Assembly (NCBI GenBank): GCA_017549145.1
Contig: JAFYVM010000023.1
Location: 1 to 62,471, forward strand
DNA: 62,471 nucleotides
Direction of reading: 5' to 3'
From: Bacteroidales bacterium
GTDB taxonomy: Bacteria > Bacteroidota > Bacteroidia > Bacteroidales > UBA932
This document shows, one piece after another, positions 34,991-58,360 of this stretch. The position numbers were made by a program, and so were the translations under genes. The notes below the pieces were generated by a model, which saw only the letters and a program-made list of their open reading frames with translations, made no database searches and was not told the DNA's origin. How positions within the stretch are numbered: position 1 is the first letter of the stretch; the number at the start of each line of letters is the position of its first letter.

Positions 34991-34993
34991 ATT

Positions 34994-35344: not shown

Positions 35345-35352
35345 CAGAATCA

Positions 35353-35360: not shown

Positions 35361-35367
35361 AAGGACA

Positions 35368-39971: not shown

Positions 39972-39983
39972 TAGACTGATATT

Positions 39984-41606: not shown

Positions 41607-41608
41607 AT

Positions 41609-42640: not shown

Positions 42641-42651
42641 TCATAAACACT

Positions 42652-43905
42652 ATGAAACGATTAGCATTGATTTTAGTCTGCCTGATGGCAGCAATGGCTG
42701 TACATGCACAGACTACAAAGCAGGAAGTTATCGATAATCCGGTAGTTACCAGAGGCCATTATTCTACATATCCGGTTCCTGCTGAAACGCTTACTCCAGC
42801 ACCGGAAGGATATGTTCCAGTGTACATGAGCCATTATGGAAGACATGGATCACGTTATCACACCAGCCGTTCAAATCATACTAATGCATACAAGATCCTT
42901 AAGGATGCGAAAGAGGCTGATCTTTTGACTTCATTCGGTAAGACTGTCTATAAGAGAGTCAGAACGATGAGAACTGATGCGAAGGGTAAGGATGGCGGCT
43001 TGACTGATGTTGGAGTTCAGGAGCATCGTGGCATTGCTGAGAGAATGTATAATAATTTCCCGGAGCTATTTGTTGGTAATGCAGTGATCGAGTGCCGCTC
43101 GACTGAGGCTCCTCGCTGTATTCTCAGTATGGCTGCAAATAACGAGCGTCTGAAGGAACTGAACCCTGGTCTGAACATTACTAGAACAGCTTATGAGGGT
43201 GATGAGTCATATCTTAGAAGAGAGAAATATCAGCACGATAACAAGAAGGATATGGGCACTGCAAGAAAGCAGTTGCTTGAGGAGTTGGATGCTACAGCTT
43301 TCATCAAGAGAATTTTTGAGAGCGGTATTGCTGATATCTTGGATGAGAAGGAACAGAAGAAGTTCATGAGAGAGATGTTTGCTCTCTATCAGATTGCGGG
43401 CTGTACTGCTTCATGCGGAGTTGAGTTTGATGATCTCTTCAATCCTGAGGAACTCTTCATCCTTTGGAGAGCCAATAATGCCGGTAACTATGCAAAATGT
43501 GGTAACTCAAAGAAGCATGGAAAGGGCGTTCTGAATGATGCAAAGCCTCTTTTGAAGGATATCGTAGAGAGAACAGATGATGCATTGGCTGGCAACGGAA
43601 TCTCAGCTGACCTTCGTTTCGGACATGATATCGCTATAGCTCCTTTGGCAGCGTTGATCAATGTCAATCAGATCGGTGCTAAAGTTGATCCTATTGATGA
43701 TGCATTCACAGTTTGGGCTGACTATAAGGTTATGCCTATGGGAGTGAACATCCAGTTTGTATTCTATCGTAATGCAGCGAATGATGTACTTGTAAAGGTG
43801 CTTTACTGCGAGAAGGAGGCTACGCTTCCTGCACTTAAACCAGTATCAGGACCTTATTATCAGTGGAAAGACGTTCGTACATATCTTCTTAGCCTGGTTA
43901 AATAA
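42652..43905 (+). CDS. Exported histidine acid phosphatase (phytase/MINPP-like)
   Basis: 417 aa. Signal peptide to about residue 20 (VHAQ). The phosphohistidine motif RHGSRYH is at residues 64-70 (His65 nucleophile), and the proton-donor motif HD occurs in RFGHDIAIAPL. The residues and spacing fit the branch-2 histidine phosphatases, which include bacterial multiple inositol polyphosphate phosphatases and phytases. This makes inositol phosphates a reasonable substrate, but glucose phosphates or other monoesters are possible. It lies between the metallophosphoesterase and an isomerase-like gene. Confidence 0.85.
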   Translation: MKRLALILVCLMAAMAVHAQTTKQEVIDNPVVTRGHYSTYPVPAETLTPAPEGYVPVYMSHYGRHGSRYHTSRSNHTNAYKILKDAKEADLLTSFGKTVYKRVRTMRTDAKGKDGGLTDVGVQEHRGIAERMYNNFPELFVGNAVIECRSTEAPRCILSMAANNERLKELNPGLNITRTAYEGDESYLRREKYQHDNKKDMGTARKQLLEELDATAFIKRIFESGIADILDEKEQKKFMREMFALYQIAGCTASCGVEFDDLFNPEELFILWRANNAGNYAKCGNSKKHGKGVLNDAKPLLKDIVERTDDALAGNGISADLRFGHDIAIAPLAALINVNQIGAKVDPIDDAFTVWADYKVMPMGVNIQFVFYRNAANDVLVKVLYCEKEATLPALKPVSGPYYQWKDVRTYLLSLVK

Positions 43906-43907
43906 TC

Positions 43908-44774
43908 ATGAAACGTATTATCCTTGTTATTGCTGCCTTGGTATTAGGTACAGCATTATGGGCACAGAGTTCCAAGGTCGGAACATCTGTTAGTATCATC
44001 GGTGGATTGTTCCCTGAATCTCTTGCAGAGGTGAAGGATGCTGGAATTGATTATATCGAGGTGTCGATAAACGCTTTCTGGCGTAAAAAGCCTGAGAATG
44101 AGGTATATATCAAGGCCTATAATGCCTTGAAGATGATTCAGGATGCAGGCCTTAAAGTGTGGTCGGTTCATCTTCCGTTCAGCAGCGGTAGAGATATCTC
44201 AGTTATAGATCCAAAGAAGAGGGAAGAGACTCTTGAGTTCTTTGAGGAAATCATTCAGTTGTCTTCGATCTTTGAGCCTAAGTATCTTGTTCTTCATCCT
44301 GGAGCAGACACAATCAAGGATGGTGAGTCAAGAGAGGAACGTCTGAAATGTTCGCGTAATTCAATCGGACGCCTGGCAATTGCAGCACGCAATATCGGCG
44401 CTGTTCTCTGCATTGAGAACCTTCCGCGTACCTGTCCTGGAAGAACAGCTCAGGAAATGGATTATTTGACTGCAAACATTCCAAATGTCGCTATTTGCTT
44501 TGACACAAATCACCTTCTCCTAGGTTCTCACCAGGAGTTCATCGAACTTCTTGGAGATAGAATCAAGACACTCCATATTTCTGATTACGATGCTGTGGAT
44601 GAAAAGCATTGGCTTCCATATCATGAGCAGGGAGTCGTAGATTGGAACGCGTTCTACAAAGGGATGAAAAAGGCAGGTTACAAGGGTTTGTTTATGTTTG
44701 AAGTTACCAAGAAACATGGTACTCCGAAGGATCTTGTAAGGGTATTTGAGCAGATGAAGAAAAAAGCTAAATAA
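43908..44774 (+). CDS. Exported sugar-phosphate isomerase/epimerase-like TIM-barrel protein
   Basis: 288 aa. Signal peptide MKRIILVIAALVLGTALWAQ, unusual for a fold that is mostly cytoplasmic but common among Bacteroidetes. AP-endonuclease-2-type TIM barrel: VHLPFSSG, YLVLHPGAD, LCIENLP, CFDTNHLLLG, TLHISDYD and FMFEV supply the His/Glu/Asp metal ligands. Members include hydroxypyruvate and inosose isomerases (IolI) and sugar epimerases. It starts 2 nt after the phosphatase stop and so acts in the same periplasmic pathway, perhaps on the dephosphorylated product (inference). Confidence 0.8.
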   Translation: MKRIILVIAALVLGTALWAQSSKVGTSVSIIGGLFPESLAEVKDAGIDYIEVSINAFWRKKPENEVYIKAYNALKMIQDAGLKVWSVHLPFSSGRDISVIDPKKREETLEFFEEIIQLSSIFEPKYLVLHPGADTIKDGESREERLKCSRNSIGRLAIAARNIGAVLCIENLPRTCPGRTAQEMDYLTANIPNVAICFDTNHLLLGSHQEFIELLGDRIKTLHISDYDAVDEKHWLPYHEQGVVDWNAFYKGMKKAGYKGLFMFEVTKKHGTPKDLVRVFEQMKKKAK

Positions 44775-44823: not shown

Positions 44824-46665
44824 ATGAGAGAATTCTGGAAAATTCTAAAACGTTATTCAGCGCCTTATAAATCGTGCATGGTTTGGGCGGTGGTTCTCAA
44901 TATATTGTCAGCTGTATTCAATATTTTCTCGTTTACACTGATCATCCCTATTTTGAACATGCTTTTCAATGTTGATCCTGATACGCCTAAGTATGTGTTT
45001 TATGCGTGGGAATCAACAGATTATACATTCAAGGAGAAGTTAGTGAACAACGCGTACTATTATGTCCAGGACATGATTGCGTTCTATGGCCCGTCGACGA
45101 CCTTGTTCCTTTTGGGTATCTTCCTTGGAGTGACAACCTTGCTCAAGACATCTTGCTATTTCGGCTCATCAGCAGTGATGATCCCTCTTAGAACGGGTGT
45201 TGTGCGTGACCTGAGAGTTCAGGTCTACAATAAGGTGCTCAGCCTTCCTATGGGCTTTTTCTCACAGCAGAAAAAAGGAGATATCATTGCACGAATGAGT
45301 GGTGACGTAGGTCAGATTGAGTTCTCGATCACAAGCTCATTGGATATGCTTATCAAGAATCCGATTCTTATCGTATTCTACTTCACGACTCTTCTTGTAA
45401 CAAGCTGGCAGTTGACTCTATTCACTATTGCTGTAGTTCCTCTTATGGCATGGGGTATGAGTGCAATCGGAAAGAAACTTAAGAGTGAATCGCATGAGGC
45501 TCAGGTAAAATGGAGTGAGACCATGTCGCAGCTTGACGAGACTCTTGGCGGTCTACGAATCATCAAGGCTTTCATCGCTGAGGATAAGATGAAGGACAGA
45601 TTCTTGAAGACTTGTAATGAGCACAGACAGTCAGTTCGCCGTGTTGCTACAAGACAGGCTTCTGCTCATCCGGTCAGCGAGTTCCTTGGAACTTGTATGA
45701 TCATGGTTGTGCTTTGGTTCGGAGGTACTTTGATTCTAAGCAAGCAGTTTGCTCTTGATGCTCCGTCATTCATTTTCTACATGGTAATCCTTTACAGCGT
45801 TCTTCAGCCTCTTAAGGAGTTCTCAAGAGCCGGTTACAGCATCCCTCAGGGTATGGCATCGGTTGAGCGAGTTGACAAGATCATGAATGCTGTGAACAAT
45901 ATTGCTGATCCAGTCGAGCCTAAGCCACTTGCAGGATTCAATGATGTGATTGAGTTCAAGGGTGTAAGTTTCTGCTATGAAGGTGGCAAGGAGGTCCTCA
46001 AGGATATCAATATGACTATCCCTAAGGGTAAGATGGTCGCACTTGTAGGTCAGTCCGGATCAGGAAAGTCAACATTGGTAGACCTTATCCCACGTTATTA
46101 CGATGTGACTGAAGGTGCTATCTGCATTGATGGTGTGGATATCCGCGACCACCGCGTGAAGGATCTTCGCAGCCTTATAGGAAACGTTAATCAGGAGGCT
46201 ATCCTCTTCAACGATACTATTTTCAACAATATCTCATTTGGAGTTGAGGGTGCAACAATGGAGCAGGTAATCGAGGCTGCCAAGATTGCTAATGCCCACG
46301 ACTTCATCATGGAGAAGGAAAAGGGATATGACACCAACATCGGTGATCGTGGAGCGAAACTCTCAGGAGGTCAGCGTCAGCGAATCAGTATCGCACGTGC
46401 CATCCTTAAGAATCCTCCGATCCTTATCCTTGACGAGGCTACTTCTGCTCTTGATACCGAGTCAGAGAAGATCGTTCAGGAGGCACTTGACAGACTTACA
46501 GGTTCCAGAACAACCATCGCAATTGCACACCGCCTTTCTACAATCAAGAATGCTGACGAAATCTGCGTAATGCACGAAGGTCGCATTGTGGAGCGCGGAC
46601 GTCATGAGGAACTTCTCGAACTTAACGGATATTATAAGAGACTTAACGACATGCAGGCACTATGA
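44824..46665 (+). CDS. MsbA-like ABC exporter, fused permease and ATPase
   Basis: 613 aa. Six membrane helices in residues 15-320 (LGTCMIMVVLWFGG in the last), then the nucleotide-binding domain: Walker A GQSGSGKST, Q-loop VNQEAIL, signature LSGGQRQRIS, Walker B PILILDEATS, H-loop IAHRLSTI. Homodimeric exporter of the lipid/drug type (MsbA, Wzk, PglK relatives). It could flip lipid A, a lipid-linked glycan or a small glycolipid. Its stop overlaps the next gene by 4 nt, tying it to the glycan and amino-acid enzymes downstream. Confidence 0.9.
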   Translation: MREFWKILKRYSAPYKSCMVWAVVLNILSAVFNIFSFTLIIPILNMLFNVDPDTPKYVFYAWESTDYTFKEKLVNNAYYYVQDMIAFYGPSTTLFLLGIFLGVTTLLKTSCYFGSSAVMIPLRTGVVRDLRVQVYNKVLSLPMGFFSQQKKGDIIARMSGDVGQIEFSITSSLDMLIKNPILIVFYFTTLLVTSWQLTLFTIAVVPLMAWGMSAIGKKLKSESHEAQVKWSETMSQLDETLGGLRIIKAFIAEDKMKDRFLKTCNEHRQSVRRVATRQASAHPVSEFLGTCMIMVVLWFGGTLILSKQFALDAPSFIFYMVILYSVLQPLKEFSRAGYSIPQGMASVERVDKIMNAVNNIADPVEPKPLAGFNDVIEFKGVSFCYEGGKEVLKDINMTIPKGKMVALVGQSGSGKSTLVDLIPRYYDVTEGAICIDGVDIRDHRVKDLRSLIGNVNQEAILFNDTIFNNISFGVEGATMEQVIEAAKIANAHDFIMEKEKGYDTNIGDRGAKLSGGQRQRISIARAILKNPPILILDEATSALDTESEKIVQEALDRLTGSRTTIAIAHRLSTIKNADEICVMHEGRIVERGRHEELLELNGYYKRLNDMQAL

Positions 46666-47555
46666 GTAAGCTGTTGACGGTTCTCCATGTCTTCTATCAC
46701 GAGCAGGTAGACTATTTCATTGATAAACTTTCGAATATCAATGGGATAGATTGGGATCTTGTTGTTACTTATTCGACATATTCTTCAGAAACTGAAGCAA
46801 AACTGAGGGATTTCAAGCCAGATGTGAAGATGGTTCAGGTGGGAAATGCAGGTTATGATGTATGGCCATTTATTCAGGTTATACAGAATGTGGATTTCTC
46901 TGAGTATGATTATGTCTTGAAACTCCACACCAAAGGTCAGTCAAAGCAGCGACTCAATGGTGTGAACTTCAAGGAGTGGCTTTGGAGAGACCTTCTTGTC
47001 AATGCGATTCTAAGATCCAGAAAGCGTTTCACCTCATGTATTGATATTCTTGAAAAACAGCAGGATGTCGGCATGATCTGTAGCTATGAATTGTTCAAAG
47101 ATATGGATGGTGTCCTTCCAGAAGAATCTGATATGCTTCAGGAAGAGGCGGAGAGAATATCTATGGAGGTGTCTGACGGATATTTCTGCGCTGGCACAAT
47201 GTTCTTAGCCCGATTGGATGCTTTCAAGAAACTAAAGGATGTTGAATTTACAGATGAGCTTTGGGGTAATCTGAATAAGTCCCATGGTAATGGAACCCTA
47301 GCTCATGTCTATGAAAGGATTCTTTGTCTGATGGTGGCCGATGCTGGCTATAAGATAGAGGTAAAACTAGGCAGCAAGAAAGCCAGCAGCTCAGTCTTTT
47401 TCAAGAAAAAAGTTTCTCCTGTCTTCAAGATCATATTCAACTTAGACAGAGATCCTAAAACATATGATAAGTATTTGACGTTGTTGGGCTTAAAGGTGAA
47501 GATTGAAGAAGGAAACCTTGAATACATGAAGAAGATTTGTAACGAGAATGAATGA
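46662..47555 (+). CDS. RgpF-like (rhamnan synthesis F) glycosyltransferase
   Basis: 297 aa, cytoplasmic. Features of the rhamnan-synthesis-F family: NAGYDVWPFIQVI, DYVLKLHTKGQSKQ, WLWRDLLVNAIL, GYFCAGTMFLARL and HVYERILCLMVADAGYKI. Such enzymes add deoxyhexoses such as rhamnose to polysaccharides, which fits the dTDP-rhamnose genes downstream. It overlaps the exporter by 4 nt and the aminotransferase by 8 nt. Confidence 0.8.
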   Translation: MSKLLTVLHVFYHEQVDYFIDKLSNINGIDWDLVVTYSTYSSETEAKLRDFKPDVKMVQVGNAGYDVWPFIQVIQNVDFSEYDYVLKLHTKGQSKQRLNGVNFKEWLWRDLLVNAILRSRKRFTSCIDILEKQQDVGMICSYELFKDMDGVLPEESDMLQEEAERISMEVSDGYFCAGTMFLARLDAFKKLKDVEFTDELWGNLNKSHGNGTLAHVYERILCLMVADAGYKIEVKLGSKKASSSVFFKKKVSPVFKIIFNLDRDPKTYDKYLTLLGLKVKIEEGNLEYMKKICNENE

Positions 47556-48660
47556 TAAATTATTAATGGTTACATCTCCTTTGCTTCCCAATCTTGAGGA
47601 ATTTAGTTATCTGTTAAAGCAGATTTGGGAAAGTAAGTGGATAACCAATAACGGTCAGTTTCACAAAAGATTGGAAAAGGAACTTTCAGAATACCTGAAA
47701 GTACCTTTTTTGAGTTTGTTTACTAACGGAACTCTTCCTCTTATTACAGCATTACAAGCGCTGGATATCAAGAAAGGAGAGGTGATAACAACCCCATATA
47801 GCTTTGTCGCTACATCTCATTCGATCTGGTGGAATGGTCTGAAACCAGTCTTTGTTGATATTGATCCCTATACATGCAATATTGATCCGACTAAGATAGA
47901 GGCTGCCATTACTCCGGAGACAGTGGCAATTATGCCAGTCCATTGTTATGGAATGCCTTGCGATATAAAAGCCATCAAGCAGATTGCAGATAAGTATGGC
48001 CTCAAGGTGATTTATGATGCAGCACATGCTTTTGCTGTAGATATAAATGGAGAATCTCTTCTGAATGCAGGAGATATGTCGACTTTAAGTTTCCATGCAA
48101 CAAAGGTTTATAATACGATTGAGGGGGGAGCTCTGGTAATTAACGATGAGGAGACAAAGCAAAAGATCGACTATCTGAAGAATTTCGGATTCCGTAATGA
48201 GGTTGAGGTGGTGGCTCCGGGCATTAACAGCAAGATGGACGAGATGCGTTCGGCATACGGCATCCTGGCCTTGCGTCAGGTTGATGATGCAATAGCAATA
48301 AGAAAATCTATAGCGGCTCAATATAGAGATGGGTTGAAGGACGTGCCAGGAGTAAGATTCCAGGACGATATTCCAGGAGTGAAGCACAACTATTCGTATT
48401 TCCCTGTATTCATTGATGCAGAGAAGTATGGAATGACGAGAGATCAGCTTTACTTTAAGATGAAGGAAGAAAATATTCTGGGGCGTCGTTATTTCTATCC
48501 TCTTATCAGTACTTTTGAACCATACGTTAATTTACCAAGTTCAGCTCCTGAGAATCTTCCGGTAGCAACACGTATTGCCAACGAAGTCATATGCCTTCCT
48601 ATGCATCACGAACTAACGTGCGAGGATGTGGATAGGGTGATTGATTTGATAGTCAGATAA
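47548..48660 (+). CDS. VioA-like dTDP-4-keto-6-deoxyglucose aminotransferase (DegT/DnrJ/EryC1 family)
   Basis: 370 aa, PLP-dependent. Lys186 in SFHATKVYNT is the Schiff-base residue; Asp157 in YDAAHAF binds the PLP nitrogen. The opening (FSYLLKQIWESKWITNNG), LSLFTNGTLPL, PYSFVATSHSIWWNGLKPVF and MPVHCYGMPCD closely follow VioA-type enzymes that make dTDP-4-amino-4,6-dideoxyglucose (viosamine) from glutamate and the 4-keto sugar, as I remember them. The keto sugar would come from rfbA and rfbB 6-8 kb downstream. Overlap with the upstream gene is 8 nt; the ATP-grasp gene starts 1 nt after its stop. Confidence 0.85.
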   Translation: MNDKLLMVTSPLLPNLEEFSYLLKQIWESKWITNNGQFHKRLEKELSEYLKVPFLSLFTNGTLPLITALQALDIKKGEVITTPYSFVATSHSIWWNGLKPVFVDIDPYTCNIDPTKIEAAITPETVAIMPVHCYGMPCDIKAIKQIADKYGLKVIYDAAHAFAVDINGESLLNAGDMSTLSFHATKVYNTIEGGALVINDEETKQKIDYLKNFGFRNEVEVVAPGINSKMDEMRSAYGILALRQVDDAIAIRKSIAAQYRDGLKDVPGVRFQDDIPGVKHNYSYFPVFIDAEKYGMTRDQLYFKMKEENILGRRYFYPLISTFEPYVNLPSSAPENLPVATRIANEVICLPMHHELTCEDVDRVIDLIVR

Positions 48661-48661
48661 A

Positions 48662-49870
48662 ATGAAGGTAGTTGTTTTAGCAGGCGGTGCTGATCAGATC
48701 GCTTTAATCAAAGAACTGAAGAAAAGAGGTTGCTATATAATTCTGGTGGATTATTTTCAAAATCCTCCTGCAAAGGAATATGCTGACCTCCACATAGTTG
48801 CAAGTACTTTAGATGATGCCAGAGTCAAGGAGATTGCTCAGGAATATCATGCTGACTTAATTTGTACAGCCTGCACAGATCAGGCTTTACTTACTGTTGC
48901 AAAAGTTTCGGAAGAGTTGAACCTTCCATGTTATATATCCTATCAGACTGCTTTGAATGTCACAAATAAGACATATATGAAGCAGAGAATGTCGCAGTGT
49001 TCTATTCCGACATCCAGGTACATGACCACCCGTGAAGTTGATTTGACTCAGTTTGCAGATTTTGAATTTCCTCTTGTCGTCAAGCCTGTAGACTGCAACT
49101 CGTCCAAGGGAGTGATAAAGGTTCATGACTCAGCTCAACTTCAGGAGAAACTCGCAGAAGCTATATCCTTCAGTCGAACTCAAACAGCAATAGTAGAGGA
49201 ATTCAAAGAGGGAGTCGAGGTCTCTGCTGACTTTTATATTGAAGGCTCCGATGTCAAATATTTATCAGCGACATCTTCTATCAAGATACAGAACAGAGAC
49301 TCTTTTACAATCAAGAGTAGCGTATATCCTGTGATTACACTTGAACAAAGGGCAAAGATCACATCTTTGGCGCAAGATATTGCAGATGCCTTTGAACTGA
49401 CAGACTGTCCGTTGCTTATTCAGATGATTGTCAATGGTGATGAAATCAATGTGATTGAATTCAGTGCCAGAATGGGAGGTGGTTCCAAATATCATCTGAT
49501 TGAAGTTCTGTCCGGAGTTGATATCATGTCAAAGTATGTTGATCTTGTTTTAGGACATAAACCTGATGTTCAGCCTGAAGACCAGGTGAAATATGCCAGG
49601 ATGAATTATGTCTATTGCTACCCTGGAACACTTGATAGGGTTGAGGGATTTGAAGCCTTGAGCGCAGACAAGATAATTGATGAAAGCTTTATATATAAGA
49701 CTCAAGGAATGACAATAACTGCAGCAGCTACCAGTGGAGATAGAGCTGCAGGTTATCTTATTACAGCAGATACTGAGGAGGAGTTGGCAAGGAAGGAGTC
49801 AATAGTGGAGTCCGTGTTGAAGGTCTTTTCTGCTGAAGGTCAAGATATAATGATTCATAATCTGGTATAG
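48662..49870 (+). CDS. ATP-grasp carboxylate-amine ligase-like enzyme
   Basis: 402 aa. N-terminal preATP-grasp domain (VVVLAGGADQIALIKELKKRGC, ILVDYFQNPP), then the ATP-grasp core: FPLVVKPVDCNSSKGV, AIVEEFKEGVEVSADFY and the metal-binding NVIEFSARMGGGSKYHL. The family joins a carboxylate, activated as acyl phosphate, to an amine or thiol; relatives include PurK, biotin carboxylase and amino-acid ligases. In this setting it could form the amide between an amino acid and the amino sugar (inference). It is 1 nt from each neighbour and clearly in the operon. Confidence 0.82.
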   Translation: MKVVVLAGGADQIALIKELKKRGCYIILVDYFQNPPAKEYADLHIVASTLDDARVKEIAQEYHADLICTACTDQALLTVAKVSEELNLPCYISYQTALNVTNKTYMKQRMSQCSIPTSRYMTTREVDLTQFADFEFPLVVKPVDCNSSKGVIKVHDSAQLQEKLAEAISFSRTQTAIVEEFKEGVEVSADFYIEGSDVKYLSATSSIKIQNRDSFTIKSSVYPVITLEQRAKITSLAQDIADAFELTDCPLLIQMIVNGDEINVIEFSARMGGGSKYHLIEVLSGVDIMSKYVDLVLGHKPDVQPEDQVKYARMNYVYCYPGTLDRVEGFEALSADKIIDESFIYKTQGMTITAAATSGDRAAGYLITADTEEELARKESIVESVLKVFSAEGQDIMIHNLV

Positions 49871-49871
49871 T

Positions 49872-50939
49872 ATGAGGATCGCAATCATAGGAGCAGGCAA
49901 CGGTGGGCAGGCTATAGCTGCCTATCTTGCACATAATGGAGCTGAGGTAAGGTTATATGATTATGACAAAAGCAAAGTAGATGAACTTAATCGTAAAGGA
50001 AATGTCATTGAACTTTGCGGTTCTGTTATATTGAAAGCGCGGATTCATCTGATTACCAATACGATTGCAGATGCTGTTCTTAATGCTGATATGATAATGA
50101 TAACGACAGTTGCTGATGCACACCGTATAATTGCGCGTCAGCTGGCTGGTCTGTTAGAAGAAAATCAGATAGTTATATTGAGTCCGGGTAGAACCGGCGG
50201 TGCCTTGGAATTCAAGCAGATAATCATGCGAGAAGGGTGCAAGGTCCGAATATATATAGCTGAAGCTCAGACTCTTGTCTATGCCTGCAGGTTGATAGAA
50301 AATGGAAAGGTAAATATAATTGGAGTTAAGGATAAGGTCCTTTTATCTGCTTTACCGTCGTCGGATACTCAATATGTATTATCGCAGATCAATCCGTATT
50401 ATGAGTGTTTCGTACCTGCAGAAAATGTGTTGAGAACATCCTTGGAAAATATCGGTGCCATATTTCACCCATGCGTCCTTATGCTGAACGCCGCAACCAT
50501 TGAACGTCAAAGCGAGTTCTGGTTTTATAGGGATATGACTCCTCAGACAGCGAATTTCATTGAGCAATTTGATAACGAGAGACTTGCTGTGGGACAGATA
50601 TATGGAATTGAATTGTTGGGGGTAAAAGAGTGGATCTCTTATGCATATCCAGGCACAGAAGGAGATACCTTATGCGAAAAGATGATAAATAATCCCGCAT
50701 ATAGGGATATTAAATCTCCTCCTACAATCTTTACTCGTCAGTTGACAGAAGATATACCTACAGGAGTCCTTCCAATTATGGAATTAGGTATGGCGGCAGG
50801 GCTTAAGATGCCTCTTATGAATTCTGTGTATTCTATATGTAGCGCACTTCTGGGAGTTGATTTTTCGCATGGTAGGACATTGGAGAATCTGGGCCTTAAG
50901 GGAATGTCAAAAGAGGAAATCCTAAAATATTTAGCATAA
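49872..50939 (+). CDS. Octopine/nopaline-dehydrogenase-like NAD(P) enzyme
   Basis: 355 aa. Rossmann motif IIGAGNGGQAIAAYLA at residues 4-19; LSPGRTGGALEF and IYIAEAQTLVYACR follow, and the C-terminal helical domain has IGAIFHPCVLMLNAATIER with the His expected in the opine-dehydrogenase catalytic pair. Such enzymes reductively join an amino acid and a 2-oxo acid to form opines, though distant members have other substrates. A polysaccharide operon is an unusual place for it; N-carboxyethyl amino acids do occur in some O-antigens. Its stop overlaps the mutase start (TAATG). Confidence 0.8.
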   Translation: MRIAIIGAGNGGQAIAAYLAHNGAEVRLYDYDKSKVDELNRKGNVIELCGSVILKARIHLITNTIADAVLNADMIMITTVADAHRIIARQLAGLLEENQIVILSPGRTGGALEFKQIIMREGCKVRIYIAEAQTLVYACRLIENGKVNIIGVKDKVLLSALPSSDTQYVLSQINPYYECFVPAENVLRTSLENIGAIFHPCVLMLNAATIERQSEFWFYRDMTPQTANFIEQFDNERLAVGQIYGIELLGVKEWISYAYPGTEGDTLCEKMINNPAYRDIKSPPTIFTRQLTEDIPTGVLPIMELGMAAGLKMPLMNSVYSICSALLGVDFSHGRTLENLGLKGMSKEEILKYLA

Positions 50940-52789
50940 TGAATAAAATGCATGTATATGGCTTGCTTAAGCCACAGGTGGATGTGCATACGATGGGAAT
51001 GTGTACGATAGCCAATCTGTTGAAGGATTGTGGTTATAAGGTGTATATTGCCGGTGAGGATGTATGTATGGCACTTGAGGATTTGAGGAAGGTGAATAAT
51101 TGGAGTTTGGTGAAGAAGTGGATTGAGGATAATGGAATCACCAGAGTCGGATTCAGTTATAGATTGGATCCTAAAGAGGGAACCGATTTATTCATGTCCT
51201 TATATGTCAGGCTTGTAGAAGAAAAGATGCTATCAGAGAACTGTGGCAATATTGATTTGGTTTCTTTTGCAGGTTTGCCGGATACATGTGAACTGGTCAA
51301 TGGAAAAACTGCCGGTAAGGTGCTGTTATTTCCAGGAAATGAAACACCTGTTGAATCTTTGAAAAAATATGGGGTTCCGGATGAACTTCTGCCGGATTCC
51401 ATAGTGAATGACAGTTCCTATGATACGATGTTGAAGGACTTTGCCAGGAAGTTGATAGAGTCTGGAAGATATATATATCAGGAACCTCTGGATCATTTCG
51501 GATATCATGAGTGTGGTAGACAGGACGATTCGTTTCTTGCAAGGAAATCCTATGCTGAGAGTCGACACTCCTTGCCTATCATCAGAACTCATTCCGGCCC
51601 ATATAATCCTAACCGTTTAGAAGCTTTGAAGGAATATAATTCCTGGTGTCGTGAATTGTCAGCTTCAAGATTGCTAGATGTCTTGTCCATAGGAAGTTCT
51701 CAATTGACTCAATCACGTTTTGGGGAAGAATGGGATGGATTGGCAAACGGAGGAGGTGTTCCTGTAAATTCTGAGATTGAGTATAGGGTCATTAAGGAAA
51801 ATGCCTCTCCTATGTTGGTGAGAACATATTCAGGGACTAAAAATGTACCTGAGCTGGCTAGAATACATGAAAGATCGCTCAATATTTCGTGGCATGCTTT
51901 TTCTTTCTGGTGGTTCAATCAGTTAGATGGCAGAGGAGACAATACTTTGTTGGATAATTTGAAGGAACATTTCGAGGCTATAAGATATGCTGCGTCAACC
52001 GGTAAACCGGTGGAGCCGAATGTGCCACATCACTTTGCGTTCCGCGGTGCAGATGATATTACTTATATCATTTCCGGATATCTTGCGGCAAAAGCATGTA
52101 AGCGCTTGGGAATCAGACATGTCGTGCTGCAGAATATGTTGAATACCCCAAAATATACATGGGGAGTGCAGGATCTCGCAAAAGGTCGGGCGATGCTGAA
52201 GCTTGTAAAGGAACTGGAGGGTGATGGGTTCTCAATAAGTCTTCAGACTAGAGCTGGCTTGGATTATTTTGTGCCAGATTTAGATGAAGCAAAGGTGCAG
52301 CTTGCTGCTGTGACATGTATGATGGATGACCTTGATCCCGGTAATGATAATTCACCGGAGATCATACATGTAGTGAATTATTCTGAGGCTGTCAGATTGG
52401 CTACGCCTCCTGTAATTGTTGAAAGTATCAAGATTACTTTACACGCCTTAGCAGAGTATCGTAGAGCACGCGCGTTGAAGCAAATTCCAGATATGAGATT
52501 TGATCTGGATGTAATCGAGAGGACCGATAAACTCTATGATGAGGCTTCAAGAGCGATAAGACTATTGGAAAATTCTTTTCCCGATCTATATTCCCCTGAA
52601 GGCTTTGCCAGAATATTTGAAGAGGGATTTCTTCCTGTCCCATATTTGATGGACCATGAAAGGAAATATCCAAAGGCAACTCAATACAGTACAGCAATCA
52701 AGGATGGAGGAATCAGAGTTGTTGATGATAAAGGAAATATTGTCGATACTGTTGAAAGGTATCATGAGATTCTGTCAAGCATTTTTTAA
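50939..52789 (+). CDS. Fused coenzyme-B12-dependent mutase, glutamate-mutase type
   Basis: 616 aa. The N-terminus carries the cobalamin signature D15-x-H17-x-x-G20 (QVDVHTMGMCTIANLL), the base-off/His-on motif of AdoCbl mutases, in a flavodoxin-like domain (1-135). Residues about 200-510 resemble the glutamate mutase catalytic subunit: R216 (IIRTHSG), R260 (TQSRFG), R295 (LVRTYSGT), then a TIM barrel with VEPNVP, YIISGYLAAKACKRLG and YSEAVRLATPPVIVESIK. Compared from memory with GlmE, at least two of the three substrate-binding arginines seem kept, while the SNEGGG stretch holding the substrate-contact Glu is not. A different substrate is therefore likely. In the known enzyme the two parts are separate chains; here they are fused. 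A distant B12-binding protein of another reaction is the main alternative. Confidence 0.72.
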   Translation: MNKMHVYGLLKPQVDVHTMGMCTIANLLKDCGYKVYIAGEDVCMALEDLRKVNNWSLVKKWIEDNGITRVGFSYRLDPKEGTDLFMSLYVRLVEEKMLSENCGNIDLVSFAGLPDTCELVNGKTAGKVLLFPGNETPVESLKKYGVPDELLPDSIVNDSSYDTMLKDFARKLIESGRYIYQEPLDHFGYHECGRQDDSFLARKSYAESRHSLPIIRTHSGPYNPNRLEALKEYNSWCRELSASRLLDVLSIGSSQLTQSRFGEEWDGLANGGGVPVNSEIEYRVIKENASPMLVRTYSGTKNVPELARIHERSLNISWHAFSFWWFNQLDGRGDNTLLDNLKEHFEAIRYAASTGKPVEPNVPHHFAFRGADDITYIISGYLAAKACKRLGIRHVVLQNMLNTPKYTWGVQDLAKGRAMLKLVKELEGDGFSISLQTRAGLDYFVPDLDEAKVQLAAVTCMMDDLDPGNDNSPEIIHVVNYSEAVRLATPPVIVESIKITLHALAEYRRARALKQIPDMRFDLDVIERTDKLYDEASRAIRLLENSFPDLYSPEGFARIFEEGFLPVPYLMDHERKYPKATQYSTAIKDGGIRVVDDKGNIVDTVERYHEILSSIF

Positions 52790-52798
52790 TTCTAACCA

Positions 52799-53779
52799 AT
52801 GGACGCATTTTCATACGAGTTAAAAAATAATGTCTTAAATGCTGTTCCTGAACCAATGGTCAGCATTCGTACGTCTGCATATAATCATGCGGGTTATATC
52901 CGTGAGTGTATTGAGGGGATCTTGAATCAAAAGACAGACTTCAAGTTCGAATATATCATTGGTGAAGATTTCAGTACAGACGGTACCAGAGAAATTGTCT
53001 TTGAGTATGCTGAGAAGTATCCAGATATAATCAGGGTAATTACTGCCGACCGTAATCTTGGTATGAAAATGAATGGCCAGAGATGTATTGATGCATGCCG
53101 AGGAAAGTATATAGCTATATGTGAGGGAGATGACTTTTGGATTGATTCATATAAGTTGCAGAAACAAGTTGACTATATGGAGTCTCATCCCGAGTGTGCG
53201 GTATGTGCGACAGAGGGCTATCGTCTTAATCAGGCAACAGGTGAAATGGCAGAACTCCCAACACTCGGACTAGAAACCTATACACCACAGGATTTTCTTG
53301 AAGGTAATCAGATATTTACGTTGACGACTCTTGCGCGCGCAAGCTGGGCTCGAGAGTTTTATACGGAGATTGAACCTATCGCACCTAGATTTATGATGGG
53401 TGACTATACGCTTTGGCTTTACATGCTTACCAGGGGTACAATTCATAAACTGTCGGATAAATGTGCGGTTTATCGTGAGCTTTCCCAGTCTGCATCTCAT
53501 TATAAGGATCCATATAAGCAGTTGAGATTTGCAGCTTCATCTTATGACCTGAGACTGTTTTACAATAGATTGTATAAATTTTCAAGCTCATCCATGCTTT
53601 TCAGGAAGTTTAAGAATATCTATTTGTGGTGCCTGCATCTTGCACACGAGCATAATCTTAAGCGTCGTTCACTTCTATGGGAGGGATTTAAGTTATGTAC
53701 GATTGAAGCAGCTTCACTGCCATCAAGAAAATTGAGATTGGCGTTCAAGCAACTTCAAAACAAAAAAGCCCTCAAATGA
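52799..53779 (+). CDS. Family 2 glycosyltransferase
   Basis: 326 aa. GT-A fold: VSIRTSAYNHAGYIRECIEGIL, EYIIGEDFSTDGTREIV (first Asp pair), GKYIAICEGDDFWID (DxD-like metal site in EGDD). It transfers a sugar from a nucleotide donor; the acceptor is unknown. It lies 9 nt after the mutase gene, within the operon, and is the last gene before the rfb block. Confidence 0.88.
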   Translation: MDAFSYELKNNVLNAVPEPMVSIRTSAYNHAGYIRECIEGILNQKTDFKFEYIIGEDFSTDGTREIVFEYAEKYPDIIRVITADRNLGMKMNGQRCIDACRGKYIAICEGDDFWIDSYKLQKQVDYMESHPECAVCATEGYRLNQATGEMAELPTLGLETYTPQDFLEGNQIFTLTTLARASWAREFYTEIEPIAPRFMMGDYTLWLYMLTRGTIHKLSDKCAVYRELSQSASHYKDPYKQLRFAASSYDLRLFYNRLYKFSSSSMLFRKFKNIYLWCLHLAHEHNLKRRSLLWEGFKLCTIEAASLPSRKLRLAFKQLQNKKALK

Positions 53780-53788
53780 TAATTTTAC

Positions 53789-53796
53789 TATATTTG
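53789..53796 (+). promoter_or_regulatory. Probable -7 element before the rfb block
   Basis: TATATTTG, 26 nt before the rfbC start; no clear -33 TTG. It would give the rhamnose genes their own transcription in addition to read-through from the glycan operon. Confidence 0.45.
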
Positions 53797-53822
53797 TAAG
53801 TCAATCTATTCGGATAAAACCT

Positions 53823-54392
53823 ATGGAAGTAATAAAGACTGATATTGAAGGTGTTGTGATCATTGAACCAAAGGTGTTCGGTGATCATAGAGGCTATTTC
53901 TTTGAATCATTCTCAGAGAGAGATTTTAATGCTCAGGTACGTGAGGTGAAGTTTGTCCAGGATAATGAGAGCAAATCATGCTACGGTGTACTTCGTGGTC
54001 TGCATTTCCAGAAACCTCCTCATTGCCAGAGTAAACTTGTGAGAGTTGTCAAAGGTGCTGTTCTCGATGTTGCAGTTGATATCAGAAAGGGCTCTCCTAC
54101 ATTTGGAAAGCATGTGGCTGTTGAACTTACAGAGGATAATCACCGTCAGTTCTTTGTCCCTCGTGGATTTGCACACGGCTTTGTGGTGCTTACTGATGAG
54201 GTGGTATTCCAATACAAATGTGATAATTTCTATGCTCCGCAGCACGAGGGAGCAATTGCCTGGGATGATCCGGATCTTGGAATAGACTGGAAAGTTCCTG
54301 CAGATAAGATCATTCTATCTGCGAAAGATACATGCCATCCACGTCTGAAGGACGCTGAATGGTTGTTTGATTATAATGAAAACCTATACTAA
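53823..54392 (+). CDS. rfbC: dTDP-4-dehydrorhamnose 3,5-epimerase
   Basis: 189 aa cupin enzyme, third step of dTDP-L-rhamnose synthesis. Seen: [31 protein letters not shown]-type stretch ([14 protein letters not shown] with the catalytic His), [21 protein letters not shown] and [12 protein letters not shown]. First of the compact rfbC-A-D-B set; rfbA starts 11 nt later. Cytoplasmic. Confidence 0.96.
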
Positions 54393-54403
54393 TCCATATA
54401 CTT

Positions 54404-55309
54404 ATGAAAGGTATTGTACTCGCAGGAGGTAGCGGCACCCGCCTTTACCCAATCACAAAGGGAGTCAGCAAGCAGATGCTCCCTGTTTATGACAAGCCTA
54501 TGATCTATTATCCTATTTCGGTTCTTATGCGTGCTGGAATCAGGGATATCCTCATCATTTCCACTCCTTATGACCTTCCTGGATTCAGAAGGCTTCTCGG
54601 TGACGGAAGTGACTATGGCGTAAACTTCTCATATGCAGAGCAGCCTTCTCCAGACGGCCTTGCTCAGGCATTTATTATTGGAGAGGAGTTTATCGGAAAC
54701 GACAGTGCTTGTCTTGTGCTCGGAGATAATATCTTCCATGGCAATGGCTTTACCAGCATGCTCAAGGATGCGGTGAAGGACGCAGAGGAGAATGGTAAGG
54801 CAACTGTGTTCGGCTATTGGGTGAGCGATCCTGAGAGATATGGAGTAGCTGAATTTGATGAGGATGGAAACTGCCTCTCAATTGAGGAAAAGCCTCTTAA
54901 GCCAAAGTCTAATTATGCAGTTGTAGGCCTTTATTTCTATCCGAATAAGGTTGTGGATATCGCAAAGAGCATCAAGCCATCAGCACGTGGTGAGCTTGAG
55001 ATTACTACAGTAAACCAGGAGTTCCTCCAGGATGGTGAACTCAAGGTGAAGACTCTCGGTCGTGGTTTCGCATGGCTTGATACAGGTACACATGATTCGC
55101 TTTCTGAGGCTTCCACTTTCATTGAGGTTATCGAGAAACGACAGGGACTTAAGATAGCTTGTCTTGAGGGAATCGCATTCCGCCAGGGATGGATTACACC
55201 GGATAAGATGCGTGAGCTTGCTCAGCCAATGATCAAGAATCAGTATGGTCAGTATCTTCTGAGAGTGATCGATGAAGTTGCGCAGACAGGTAAACCAAAT
55301 CTCGACTAA
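54404..55309 (+). CDS. rfbA: Glucose-1-phosphate thymidylyltransferase
   Basis: 301 aa. Makes dTDP-glucose from dTTP and glucose-1-phosphate. Seen: the nucleotidyltransferase motif [13 protein letters not shown] with [46 protein letters not shown] and [14 protein letters not shown]. It supplies both rhamnose synthesis and, if the VioA assignment is right, the amino sugar branch. Confidence 0.96.
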
Positions 55310-55312
55310 GGT

Positions 55313-56197
55313 ATGACAGTATTAGTAACAGGTGCAAATGGTCAGCTCGGTAGCGAAATGAGGCTTGTAGCTGCAGAAAGTAAGGATAGATACATCTTTA
55401 CTGATGTGGTTGAGCTTCCTGGTGTTGAGACTGTCAAACTTGATATTACAGATCTGGAGGCAGTTCGTACAATCGTAAAAGAGAACGATGTTAAGGCTAT
55501 TGTAAACTGCGCTGCATATACTAATGTGGATAAGGCTGAGGAGGATCAGGAGTTTTGCGCTCTGCTTAACGCAAAGGCACCTGAGAACCTTGCTGTAGCG
55601 ATGAAGGAAGTTGATGGCCTTCTTGTACATGTGTCCACAGATTATGTTTTTGGTGGTGATCCATACAACACTCCATGCCGTGAGGATCAGAAAGGTACCC
55701 CAACAGGAGTCTATGGACTTACAAAACTTCAGGGCGAGCAGGCTATTGAGGCTTCAGGTTGCCACCATGTGATCATCCGTACAGCATGGCTCTACAGCGA
55801 GTTTGGAAAGAACTTCGTGAAGACAATGCTTATGCTTACTTCTACAAAGCCGCAGCTTAGCGTTGTATTCGATCAGACAGGAACTCCAACTTATGCTTTA
55901 GATCTCGCAGAGGCTATTTACGACATAGTGGAGAATCGTAAATATGAGGGCAATGATGGTGTATATCACTTCTCTAATGAGGGTGTCTGCAGTTGGTTCG
56001 ACTTCACAAAGATGATTGCAGAATATGCAGGTAACACAGAATGTGAAATCAAGCCATGCCACAGTGATGAGTTCCCAAGCAAGGTAAAGCGCCCAGCTTA
56101 CTCTGTACTCGACAAGACTAAGATTAAAAATACATTCGGAATCAGCATTCCTTACTGGACTGACTCCTTGAAAAAATGCATAAAAAACCTACAGTAA
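55313..56197 (+). CDS. rfbD: dTDP-4-dehydrorhamnose reductase
   Basis: 294 aa SDR enzyme, last step to dTDP-L-rhamnose. Seen: VTGANGQLGSEM nucleotide motif, VNCAAYTNVDKAE, STDYVFGG and the catalytic YGLTKLQGE Tyr-Lys pair. It begins 3 nt after rfbA and its stop overlaps the rfbB start by one base. Confidence 0.95.
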   Translation: MTVLVTGANGQLGSEMRLVAAESKDRYIFTDVVELPGVETVKLDITDLEAVRTIVKENDVKAIVNCAAYTNVDKAEEDQEFCALLNAKAPENLAVAMKEVDGLLVHVSTDYVFGGDPYNTPCREDQKGTPTGVYGLTKLQGEQAIEASGCHHVIIRTAWLYSEFGKNFVKTMLMLTSTKPQLSVVFDQTGTPTYALDLAEAIYDIVENRKYEGNDGVYHFSNEGVCSWFDFTKMIAEYAGNTECEIKPCHSDEFPSKVKRPAYSVLDKTKIKNTFGISIPYWTDSLKKCIKNLQ

Positions 56198-57336
56198 TGA
56201 ATTTCAAGAGAAATATCATCGTGACTGGTGGTGCTGGATTTATCGGCAGCCACGTTGTCAGACTTTTTGTAAACAAGTATCCTGAGTACCGTATTATCAA
56301 CGTAGATAAGTTGACTTATGCAGGTAACCTTGCAAATCTTAAGGATATTGAGGATAAGCCTAACTATGTCTTTGTAAAGGCAGATATATGTGATTTCGAC
56401 GCGATGTACGAGCTCATGCAGAAGTATGCAGTGGATGGCATTATCCACCTTGCAGCAGAGTCGCATGTTGACCGTTCAATCAAGGATCCGTTCACTTTTG
56501 CCCGCACAAACGTAATGGGTACGCTCAGCCTTCTTCAGGCTGCTAAGCTTATGTGGGAAGCACAACCTGAGAAATATGAGGGCAAGCGTTTCTACCACAT
56601 CTCGACAGACGAGGTGTATGGTGCACTTCAGATGAATCGTCCAGAGGGTATTGAGCCTCCTTTCAAGACAGTAGCTTCTTCAGAGGGACATAAGGCTTAT
56701 GGTGATGATTTCTTCTATGAGACTACCAAGTATAATCCTCACTCTCCATATTCAGCATCAAAGGCTTCATCTGACCACTTTGTACGCGCATTCCACGACA
56801 CATACGGCATGCCTACAATCGTGACCAACTGTTCTAACAACTACGGACCTTATCAGTTCCCAGAGAAGCTTATTCCGCTCTTCATCAATAATATCCGTAA
56901 CCGTAAGCCGCTTCCAGTATACGGAAAGGGTGAGAACGTTCGCGACTGGCTCTTCGTTGAGGACCATGCCAGAGCAATCGACGTGATCTTCCATGAGGGT
57001 AAGATTGCCGAAACTTATAATATCGGTGGTTTCAATGAGTGGAAGAATATCGACCTTATCAAGGTTATGATCAAGACCGTGGACAAGATTCTCGGCAACC
57101 CTGAGGGACACAGCCTTGAGCTCATCACATATGTGACAGACCGCCTTGGACATGATGCACGTTACGCAATCGATTCGACAAAGCTTCAGAAGGAACTAGG
57201 ATGGGAACCTTCACTCCAGTTTGAGGAGGGAATCGAGAAGACAGTAAGATGGTATCTTGATAATCAGGAGTGGATGGATAATATCACTTCTGGTGAGTAT
57301 GAGAAGTACTATCAGGATATGTACAAAGGTCGCTAA
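56197..57336 (+). CDS. rfbB: dTDP-glucose 4,6-dehydratase
   Basis: About 379 aa. Produces dTDP-4-keto-6-deoxyglucose, the branch point for rhamnose and viosamine-type sugars. Seen: VTGGAGFIGSHVVRLF, HLAAESHVDRSI, HISTDEVYG, catalytic YSASKASSDH, and TNCSNNYGPYQFPEKLIPL. The ATG at 56197 overlaps the rfbD stop and is preferred over 56176, which lies within rfbD. The stop is 1 nt from the stop of the convergent M28-like gene. Confidence 0.96.
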   Translation: MNFKRNIIVTGGAGFIGSHVVRLFVNKYPEYRIINVDKLTYAGNLANLKDIEDKPNYVFVKADICDFDAMYELMQKYAVDGIIHLAAESHVDRSIKDPFTFARTNVMGTLSLLQAAKLMWEAQPEKYEGKRFYHISTDEVYGALQMNRPEGIEPPFKTVASSEGHKAYGDDFFYETTKYNPHSPYSASKASSDHFVRAFHDTYGMPTIVTNCSNNYGPYQFPEKLIPLFINNIRNRKPLPVYGKGENVRDWLFVEDHARAIDVIFHEGKIAETYNIGGFNEWKNIDLIKVMIKTVDKILGNPEGHSLELITYVTDRLGHDARYAIDSTKLQKELGWEPSLQFEEGIEKTVRWYLDNQEWMDNITSGEYEKYYQDMYKGR

Positions 57337-57337
57337 G

Positions 57338-58360
57338 CTAGAGCATCTTCTCCAGCCAGTGATAAATAAGATAGATTCTCTTTTTGAGGATAGGATAGTT
57401 AAGACTCGCGGCTTTGTCGCGGGTCTTATTGTTATTCATGGTAATGCCTGATGTGAACATCACTGCCGGGATACCATGATCAATGAATACTCTCTGGTCA
57501 GAGAGTCTGTAGAACATGTTTGTGAAATTCTCACTTCCGTAATAACTATGCGCAATCTCCAGATTGAGATTATATAGTCTGTTACATGTGCTGATCTTCT
57601 CTTGTCTGCTGGAACTAAGTGAGTGATTGCCAAGCATTATGAGGTAGTCTTCGCGTCCAGATCTGAGAGGGGAGAGTGTGCAGCCGATCTGATCTATGTT
57701 AGCCATGAGAGTGATCATGCTCTTTCTGATTTTACCTCCTGTCACAGGGTCGGTAAGCTGACCTTTCTCAATCATTTTCCAGAATGCCTCTGAGCCTGCA
57801 AGGTCATGTCCGTTACCGTCAAATGCCACGAAAATAATATTGCTCTCCCATACTTTGCCACATGATCTCATGGCAGAGAACATCTCGGCAAGAGACATCA
57901 GTGCTGCAGTACCTGAAGCGTTGGCGTCTGCGCCAGGATAAATGGTGCCGTTAATCTTTCCGAGGTGATCGAAGTGAGCACCGACAATTACATATTTATT
58001 GCGAGAGGTTTTGGAACCGCCGGGAAGAAAACCGATGACATTAGTTCCACATACACCTTTGCTGGTTTTGAAACGATGGTGGTAGCTGCCCTTACTCTTT
58101 AAAAGCTTGATTTTCTCGAAATTTCTTCCGATCCATGTCGCAGCTTCAATAGCTCCTCTTGTACCTGTAGAGCGACCCTCGCACATATCATCGGTGAGAA
58201 ACTCCACCTTATGTCTGATTGTGGATTCGCTGATCTTATTTCTGGCAGGGAGGTGACTGCTGACCCAGATGCTTTGTGCGCTAGAGGAGAATGCCAGTAG
58301 CATGGCGATGATGGTCATCATCGACAGCTTTACTGAACTTTTTGAAAAAAAACACCTCAT
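57338..58360 (-). CDS. Exported M28-peptidase-like protein with degenerate active site
   Basis: 340 aa. Signal peptide ending about SSSAQ. M28 fold signatures: STGTRGAIEAATWIG, VGAHFDHLG (first His kept), PGADANASGTAAL (first Asp kept), MANIDQIG (Asp kept). The usual catalytic and metal-binding GEE is replaced by DGNGHDLAGSEAF, and the terminal His normally within an HTP-like loop is absent where the protein reads TSGITMNNNKTRDK. It is therefore probably a poor or non-peptidase member, or a subfamily with different chemistry. The gene is convergent with rfbB and divergent from the TPR gene. Confidence 0.75.
   Translation of the reverse strand: MRCFFSKSSVKLSMMTIIAMLLAFSSSAQSIWVSSHLPARNKISESTIRHKVEFLTDDMCEGRSTGTRGAIEAATWIGRNFEKIKLLKSKGSYHHRFKTSKGVCGTNVIGFLPGGSKTSRNKYVIVGAHFDHLGKINGTIYPGADANASGTAALMSLAEMFSAMRSCGKVWESNIIFVAFDGNGHDLAGSEAFWKMIEKGQLTDPVTGGKIRKSMITLMANIDQIGCTLSPLRSGREDYLIMLGNHSLSSSRQEKISTCNRLYNLNLEIAHSYYGSENFTNMFYRLSDQRVFIDHGIPAVMFTSGITMNNNKTRDKAASLNYPILKKRIYLIYHWLEKML
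57401..57436 (+). terminator. Terminator-like hairpin for the rfb operon, inside the M28-like gene
   Basis: A 10-bp stem, AAGACTCGCG (57401-57410) with CGCGGGTCTT (57418-57427, one G-T pair), and ATTGTTATT after it on the plus strand. It lies about 65 nt past the rfbB stop, within the antisense strand of the 3' end of the M28-like coding region. Confidence 0.55.

Follow-up and report, generated by a model that had tools for sequence, protein, structure and literature searches.

An opine dehydrogenase paired with a glutamate-mutase-like B12 protein in a Bacteroidales operon for a candidate acylated amino sugar

The 62,471 nucleotides (nt) of Bacteroidales DNA analysed here (GenBank assembly GCA_017549145.1, contig JAFYVM010000023.1; the whole stretch is called the window) carry, at positions 44824-57336, a compact run of genes in which an opine dehydrogenase of the CENDH type (ODH) is directly followed by an unusual B12 protein (MUT). 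The two proteins form a tight pair in many bacteria. Profile comparisons show MUT to be homologous to glutamate mutase, and in a subset of genomes the pair is conserved together with an ATP-grasp ligase and a sugar C4 aminotransferase. The best explanation, to which we give about an even chance, is that the operon makes a surface glycan with a 4-amino-4,6-dideoxy sugar that is N-acylated, via the ATP-grasp ligase, by an acid built by ODH and then by MUT.

The ODH-MUT pair

Relatives of MUT were found in 5 of 395 genomes sampled from the phylum, in 10 of 393 from the order, and in contig loci from GTDB. At least 548 of at least 590 pattern matches in GTDB were confirmed, and the best 80 (those most similar to the window) were kept, with Bacteroidales over-represented among them; even so they cover ten named phyla (41 Bacteroidota, 19 Bacillota and 9 unassigned). 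Carriers include Heminiphilus faecis AM35, Polaribacter marinus MSW13 and Acidaminobacter hydrogenoformans. No MUT turned up in plasmids or phages at E 1e-3. Three of the resulting 93 loci (L015, L016 and L017) repeat L042, L054 and L064, with contigs of equal length, and are left out of the 90-locus counts, the distance correlations and the tree; L020 and L021 come from one genome. Weak PF06368 matches in 12 of 198 Bacteroidota genomes at first resembled further MUT relatives, but the frames called there never matched the MUT profile and, on reading, look like methylmalonyl-CoA mutase or chance.

The coincidence of the two genes is close. In the order sample the identical 10 of 393 genomes hold MUT and a strong ODH match (E 1.3e-167 to 5.6e-140), and seven others have weaker ODH matches only (E 8.8e-79 to 4.7e-21) and no MUT. 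With the ODH threshold placed in this observed gap, between 5.6e-140 and 8.8e-79, and at most five candidates scored per genome, the probability of such a coincidence by chance is about 5e-20. ODH lies within 150 nt of MUT, on the same strand, in 73 of the 93 loci and is present somewhere in 79. These counts were made on six frames, since in some GC-rich loci (L067, L068 and L083) long antisense open frames over ODH can mask it from longest-frame gene calling. Among the 14 MUT loci without ODH, four (L020, L063, L070 and L085) sit so close to a contig end that no more than 240 nt of upstream sequence is available; nine of the 14 genomes were searched and in eight an ODH was found elsewhere (split in two in the genome of L087), the exception being G1093 (L078). 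Eleven loci were reached through PF06368, and nine of them carry a short type of MUT, with ODH adjoining in all nine. The distances of the two proteins also correlate (r 0.79, n=70, permutation 0.001). The Aminicenantes MUT loci have no adjacent ODH; in one of them (L101, 213-6099) two PmbA/TldD genes stand between ODH and MUT. Elsewhere a tandem ODH pair precedes MUT (L032 and L043, 7820-9974), and L021 has a second ODH beside its ATP-grasp gene.

The company that the pair keeps is varied. In five loci (L073, L097, L100, L106 and L107) it has no same-strand neighbour within 120 nt. Asparagine-synthase-like genes stand beside it in seven loci that fall in one gene cluster (L026, L065 and L105 were domain-scanned), and Ddl-like ligases in L019, L074 and L104; still other genes adjoin it in further loci. 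The idea that the pair serves glycans only was consequently rejected; being far wider than glycan loci, the pair would have sugar decoration as only one of its uses.

Kinship of MUT with glutamate mutase

Taken alone, the window MUT has no match in Pfam (E 0.001), NCBIfam (E 0.01) or PDB (E 1), and it reaches the B12-binding domain at E 0.022; its nature therefore had to be read from its relatives. Among 11 diverse members scanned against Pfam at E 0.1, eight match B12-binding (best 2e-10) and two match Met_asp_mut_E (best 1.6e-4), the window protein not being one of these two. The Met_asp_mut_E cut-off of 26.6 bits is exceeded by five of nine short-type MUT from Firmicutes (26.9-32.1 bits).

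Profile comparisons were made with 53 MUT rows, 11 of the short type (523-567 residues) and 42 of the long type (614-645 residues). The MUT barrel aligns with a 43-row GlmE profile over 355 columns (hhalign, E 9.3e-10), while the null controls run against MUT (reversed GlmE, five column shuffles, ODH and an eight-row methylmalonyl-CoA-mutase-like profile) gave E 0.07-0.64; as a positive control, GlmE met the methylmalonyl-CoA-mutase-like profile at E 6.3e-24. GlmE is matched separately by the short type (E 1.4e-8) and the long type (E 6.3e-7, 199 columns). The N-terminal domain matches GlmS at E 6.6e-8 over 124 columns for the short type and at E 3.8e-4 over 123 columns for all 53 rows, against E 0.06-0.55 in six shuffle controls. 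Thinner inputs gave less: a two-sequence GlmE profile showed no signal against MUT in hhalign, an 11-row MUT profile had a weak corrinoid-protein match in PDB (E 0.27), and one short-type MUT alone met the GlmS chain 1be1 at E 0.069. On the strength of the GlmE and GlmS profile matches and the short-type Pfam scores, MUT is, as far as homology can tell, a one-chain GlmS-GlmE-like protein, the B12 domain being better supported in the short type. An earlier sequence-only reading of this DNA had labelled the protein B12-mutase-like. The label survives through the profiles of the relatives, the window protein by itself having no significant database match.

The sequence DVHTMG at residues 15-20 of the window MUT fits the DxHxxG motif of S-type cobalamin-binding domains. 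Its His and Gly are kept in 53 of 53 rows; the first position is Asp (Glu in two rows) in the 42 long rows and Cys in the 11 short ones. A Glu aligned with GlmE E330, a residue that we take to have a ribose role, is invariant in the MUT rows. The axial-type His and Gly and this Glu, together with the BtuR genes that neighbour the pair in some genomes (see below), point to adenosylcobalamin as the probable cofactor.

The substrate site appears to have changed. According to the accessible part of the source, glutamate is held in GlmE by R66, R100, R149, E171 and Y177 (PMC10947579). The MUT equivalents of this arginine claw are His218 (R66), Gln258 (R100) and Tyr297 (R149), each in 53 of 53 aligned rows; the E171 position is His in 42 of 53 rows, and the Y177 position is Trp325 in all 53. 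Because the aligned claw residues differ in every row, MUT is probably not a glutamate mutase, and the simple equation of the two was set aside. Arg216 and Arg295, two residues before the aligned R66 and R149 positions, are invariant in MUT; the altered claw with this earlier Arg pair could fit a larger substrate. Canonical GlmE is also present in 2 of 10 genomes searched, those of L074 and L100.

The partner enzyme is more easily recognized. ODH matches the CENDH structure 1bg6 over its full length (E 1.3e-69; by profile E 1.7e-108), and its His199 and Asp294, aligned with 1bg6, are kept in 76 of 76 rows, the window included. This is presumably the His/Asp pair that is catalytic in opine dehydrogenases. 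Given the CENDH kinship and the retained pair, the expected reaction of ODH is the condensation of an amino acid and a 2-oxo acid. In L065 (8313-9980) ODH carries an N-terminal PTS_EIIA_2 domain, and L071 has an ODH frame of comparable length; a regulatory link to a nitrogen phosphotransferase system is possible.

Layout of the operon

The eleven genes and the hairpin that follows them are listed here.

44824-46665, + strand: ABC exporter of MsbA/lipid-flippase type (Pfam ABC_membrane and ABC_tran; MsbA structures among the PDB matches)
46662-47555, + strand: RgpF-type glycosyltransferase (PF05045, E 1.2e-24)
47548-48660, + strand: DegT aminotransferase of DesI/VioA type (PF01041 DegT_DnrJ_EryC1, 339 bits)
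48662-49870, + strand: putative ATP-grasp amide ligase with an L-amino-acid-ligase-like C-terminus (PF13535 ATP-grasp_4, 47.8 bits; LAL_C2)
49872-50939, + strand: opine dehydrogenase of CENDH type, ODH (PF02317 Octopine_DH, 129.6 bits, cut-off 30)
50939-52789, + strand: one-chain B12 mutase relative, MUT (N-terminal B12 domain about 1-145; GlmE-like barrel about 213-605)
52799-53779, + strand: GT2 glycosyltransferase (PF00535 Glycos_transf_2, E 3.3e-24)
53823-54392, + strand: rfbC, dTDP-4-dehydrorhamnose 3,5-epimerase (TIGR01221, 253 bits, cut-off 156; dTDP_sugar_isom)
54404-55309, + strand: rfbA, glucose-1-phosphate thymidylyltransferase (TIGR01207, 488 bits, cut-off 361)
55313-56197, + strand: rfbD, dTDP-4-dehydrorhamnose reductase (PF04321 RmlD_sub_bind, E 5.8e-96)
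56176-57336, + strand: rfbB, dTDP-glucose 4,6-dehydratase (TIGR01181, 453 bits, cut-off 365; GDP_Man_Dehyd)
57400-57428, + strand: terminator-like hairpin of 13 pairs just 3' of rfbB (consensus match only)

The spacings in gene order are -4, -8, 1, 1, -1, 9, 43, 11, 3 and -22 nt, so the genes overlap or are separated by very short gaps, the widest being the 43 nt before rfbC; the MUT start overlaps the ODH stop (TAATG). The sequence-only reading had named these genes in this stretch, and all of them are there, on the + strand; the packing by gaps of 1-9 nt or overlaps that it described holds for the seven genes from the exporter to GT2, the step to rfbC being the wider one. The hairpin has the longest stem among 13 terminator-like sites (9.1 expected), and it is possibly the end of the transcript. 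The dTDP-rhamnose pathway is complete, with RmlA, RmlB and RmlC above their NCBIfam cut-offs and RmlD recognized by PF04321. A Pfam scan found no acetyl- or formyltransferase among the operon genes. At gathering scores Rfam gave no match for the window or for 12 relatives, and hence no cobalamin riboswitch was found in them. The cargo of the ABC exporter is perhaps a lipid-linked glycan or lipid A.

Upstream of the operon, on the same strand (32003-44774), lies a group of genes for a BACON-domain protein, a Plug-domain receptor with the look of SusC, a SusD, a DUF6528 protein and a metallophosphoesterase. It also includes a xylose-isomerase-like barrel and a 417-residue protein (no Pfam match at 1e-8) with an RHGSR motif, in which we would see the look of a histidine phosphatase. 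The group may perhaps be a phosphate-ester uptake locus.

The four-gene set and its sugar loci

The best PDB match of the aminotransferase is 2po3 (E 2.8e-61), with an SFHATK motif in both proteins; we take this structure to be DesI, the C4 aminotransferase of dTDP-4-keto-6-deoxyglucose. The window enzyme thus probably turns dTDP-4-keto-6-deoxyglucose into dTDP-4-amino-4,6-dideoxyglucose (dTDP-Qui4N). The PDB matches of the ATP-grasp protein include 4dim and 3vot, an L-amino acid ligase; in NCBIfam it stays below the cut-offs in the best 25 of 46 models.

Window-type genes were counted in the 90 loci at identities of at least 35% for the ATP-grasp protein and at least 40% for the aminotransferase. 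The former occurs in 28 loci, the latter in 18, and both together with ODH and MUT in 13, of which 12 are from Bacteroidota (Polaribacter marinus among them) and one from a Firmicute. The sequence-only reading had stated that a lack of co-conservation of these four genes in other genomes would refute it, and these counts do not do so; conserved as it is in other genomes, the gene set is more than a chance assembly. In this Firmicute locus, L088 of a Ruminococcaceae genome, the ATP-grasp gene, ODH, MUT, a DesI-type aminotransferase, rfbA and rfbB occur in an order different from that of the window. Of the 28 loci with the ATP-grasp gene, 26 have it immediately 5' of ODH (the exceptions are L059 and L103), and ATP-grasp and MUT distances are correlated (r 0.68, n=28).

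A second kind of locus has a homologous initiating sugar transferase, which was found in 17 loci, a count that takes in both L015 and its repeat L042, with PF02397 in L015 and L077. It often stands just before the ATP-grasp gene, ODH and MUT; in L045 and L046 a DesI-type set comes first and the transferase follows a long way downstream. Four aminotransferases scanned from loci of this second kind (L042, L031, L055 and L077) all have LegC as their best family, and L077 has a diverged ATP-grasp protein (22% identity). Each locus was typed by its window-type aminotransferase, by its initiating sugar transferase or as having neither, truncated loci counting as neither, and the types were placed on a quick tree of MUT with 21 open forks and one very long row (L022); at least 14 switches of type result. 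The acid module therefore looks movable from one kind of 4-amino sugar to another, two kinds being seen, and this supports an N-acyl role at C4. Four further loci (L038, L044, L050 and L052) have a window-type aminotransferase, two to three diverged ATP-grasp genes and a protein of 314-369 residues before ODH and MUT, and L030 is partly alike; these loci might perhaps build an acyl chain on the sugar in two steps.

A proposed pathway and its rivals

In the pathway that we favor, RfbA and RfbB would provide dTDP-4-keto-6-deoxyglucose for both rhamnose and the 4-amino sugar, and the DesI-type aminotransferase would place the amino group at C4. ODH would reductively join an amino acid to a 2-oxo acid to give an N-(1-carboxyalkyl) amino acid (an opine), the carbon skeleton of which MUT, as an adenosylcobalamin radical enzyme, would next rearrange. 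By analogy with glutamate mutase, the group that it shifts would be of the glycyl type, with a substituted glycyl radical as intermediate; were the amino acid glutamate, an N-carboxyalkyl-3-methylaspartate would result. The ATP-grasp ligase would then join the acid to the 4-amino group, acylating dTDP-Qui4N, and the glycosyltransferases would assemble a glycan for export by the ABC protein. We infer the identity of the acid, the action of ODH before MUT, the amide bond and the export role. To our knowledge, the rearrangement of an opine carbon skeleton by an adenosylcobalamin mutase has no precedent. That the 4-amino sugar bears an opine-like acid is likely. To this extent the earlier proposal of an atypical acid on an amino sugar stands, and a natural glycan offers it a precedent in the accessible text of PMC10609480. 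More tentatively, and on balance somewhat less probably true than false, ODH and MUT may represent a widespread pathway that rearranges opine skeletons, with a product that, in Bacteroidales and some Firmicutes, is joined to 4-amino-6-deoxy sugars on surface glycans and so gives these bacteria a B12-dependent surface structure.

Several observations weigh against the favored reading. All of the loci were collected through MUT or ODH, and sugar genes are absent from the surroundings of many pairs outside Bacteroidales. The change of the claw rests on a sequence alignment with a register uncertain by two residues, and a shift would restore two of the claw arginines; long-type N-terminal domains by themselves match GlmS weakly (E 0.0019 over 35 columns, 42 rows). 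The aminotransferase, which the sequence-only reading had called VioA-like, clearly has the DegT fold, but its best NCBIfam model, DesI, gives only 281 bits under a cut-off of 650. The LegC matches of the four aminotransferases scanned from the initiating-transferase loci are again below cut-off. Finally, the exporter, earlier called MsbA-like, does have MsbA-type proteins as its best matches but reaches only 503 bits with the NCBIfam MsbA model TIGR02203, under a cut-off of 602.

The order of the two enzymes could be the reverse: MUT would first convert an ordinary amino acid such as glutamate into a branched one of the 3-methylaspartate type, which ODH would then condense with a 2-oxo acid before the ATP-grasp enzyme attached it to the amino sugar. 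This accounts for the same gene set, suits the homology of MUT to GlmS and GlmE, and predicts the tight pairing as well as the favored order does. We nevertheless think it rather unlikely, as the three claw positions and those of E171 and Y177 differ from glutamate mutase (roles from the accessible part of PMC10947579), and a MUT product useful in itself would predict that MUT is common without ODH, whereas eight of the nine genomes searched behind ODH-less loci have ODH elsewhere. In a different scheme the product of ODH and MUT would be a separate metabolite (an osmolyte, a metallophore or a catabolic intermediate) that merely shares the operon, the ATP-grasp enzyme joining a common amino acid to the sugar. 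The five pairs without close neighbours speak for this, as do the asparagine-synthase-like and Ddl-like partners elsewhere, which the accessible part of PMC2667541 also describes; plain amino-acid groups on Qui4N are known too, such as the N-acetyl-aspartyl of Providencia stuartii O33 (cited in the reference list of PMC10609480). The position of the ATP-grasp gene directly 5' of ODH in nearly all loci that have it, in two kinds of sugar locus, and the tracking of MUT distances by ATP-grasp distances make such a scheme improbable.

It could also be that the window MUT is inactive as an adenosylcobalamin enzyme, or that the cluster is inert in its host for want of the cofactor. Neither PF02572 nor PF01923, the adenosyltransferase families, was found in the window genome (G000, 83% complete), and PF01923 was not found in G402 and G757, two members of the window's genus rated 100% complete; three genomes of the family have it. 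These absences count against our favored pathway as well. Over the 28 carriers tested, however, PF01923 is present in 22. In two of the other six, the Firmicutes L089 (3293-5688) and L091 (1194-3604), a CobA/BtuR adenosyltransferase gene stands directly 3' of ODH and MUT; the remaining four are G000 and three genomes (G427, G1109 and G1112) in which PF01923 was not found and BtuR was not searched for. The window protein retains DVHTMG and the residues invariant in the 53 rows, the metagenome-assembled genome is incomplete, and finished cofactor may be imported. G000 also holds another B12-domain protein (a 1338-residue frame), which from its size we guess to be MetH. We regard an inactive MUT or an inert cluster as very improbable.

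Adenosylcobalamin carbon-skeleton mutases form a small group. A divergent branch of them, spread over many phyla with a fixed ODH partner, points to an undescribed metabolite behind the pair predicted in 2009 (PMC2667541, accessible part). The glutamate-mutase kinship narrows the chemistry of the pair, and the sugar loci offer a starting point in the search for its product. If the favored pathway is true, vitamin B12 supply would be linked to surface glycan chemistry in Bacteroidales.

Comparison with known systems

The elements of the proposed pathway have known counterparts. ODH is like CENDH (1bg6) in its full-length homology and its His/Asp pair and differs from it as a clade tied to MUT. 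With glutamate mutase (GlmS + GlmE, EC 5.4.99.1) MUT shares the B12 domain with its His motif and the homologous barrel over 355 columns, but it is a single-chain fusion, has changed residues at the R66, R100, R149, E171 and Y177 positions, and has ODH as its partner. The VioA/DesI pathway shares RfbA, RfbB and a DesI-like aminotransferase with the window, which adds the ATP-grasp ligase and the ODH-MUT pair and is without the acetyl- or formyltransferase. Like the ATP-grasp amide ligases (BL00235, the protein of PDB 3vot, and the PylC and DdaF families), the window ligase has an ATP-grasp domain and an LAL_C2 end; it falls below the NCBIfam cut-offs of the best 25 of 46 models. The closest chemical parallel is the O-antigen of Providencia alcalifaciens O35, in which D-Qui4N is acylated with alanopine, an opine, a natural opine amide on 4-amino-4,6-dideoxyglucose; a B12 mutase is not mentioned in the accessible part of that source (PMC10609480).

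The pair itself has been foreseen. For 11 bacteria belonging to four groups, Zhang et al. (2009) put forward a predicted new family of B12-dependent proteins, the function of which they left open; as the accessible text describes it, the family has B12-binding homology at its N-terminus and always adjoins an octopine/nopaline dehydrogenase (pfam02317), and in several organisms D-Ala:D-Ala ligase and asparagine synthase are close by (PMC2667541). MUT has both the B12-binding N-terminus and the pfam02317 neighbour, and since the neighbours outside sugar loci are identical, it is almost certainly the same family, matched by description and neighbours. The accessible part of that paper names neither glutamate-mutase kinship nor sugar loci, and the word polysaccharide is absent from its main text (PMC2667541). 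The claim of the sequence-only reading that no operon of this combination had been described must therefore yield the ODH-B12 pair to the 2009 prediction (PMC2667541, accessible part); it keeps the operon as a whole, which is unnamed in the open literature searched. Within that literature (subscription journals lie mostly outside it), and as far as the searches reach, what is new beside the 2009 family is its kinship with glutamate mutase, its genome-scale co-occurrence with ODH, and its setting in amino-sugar loci.

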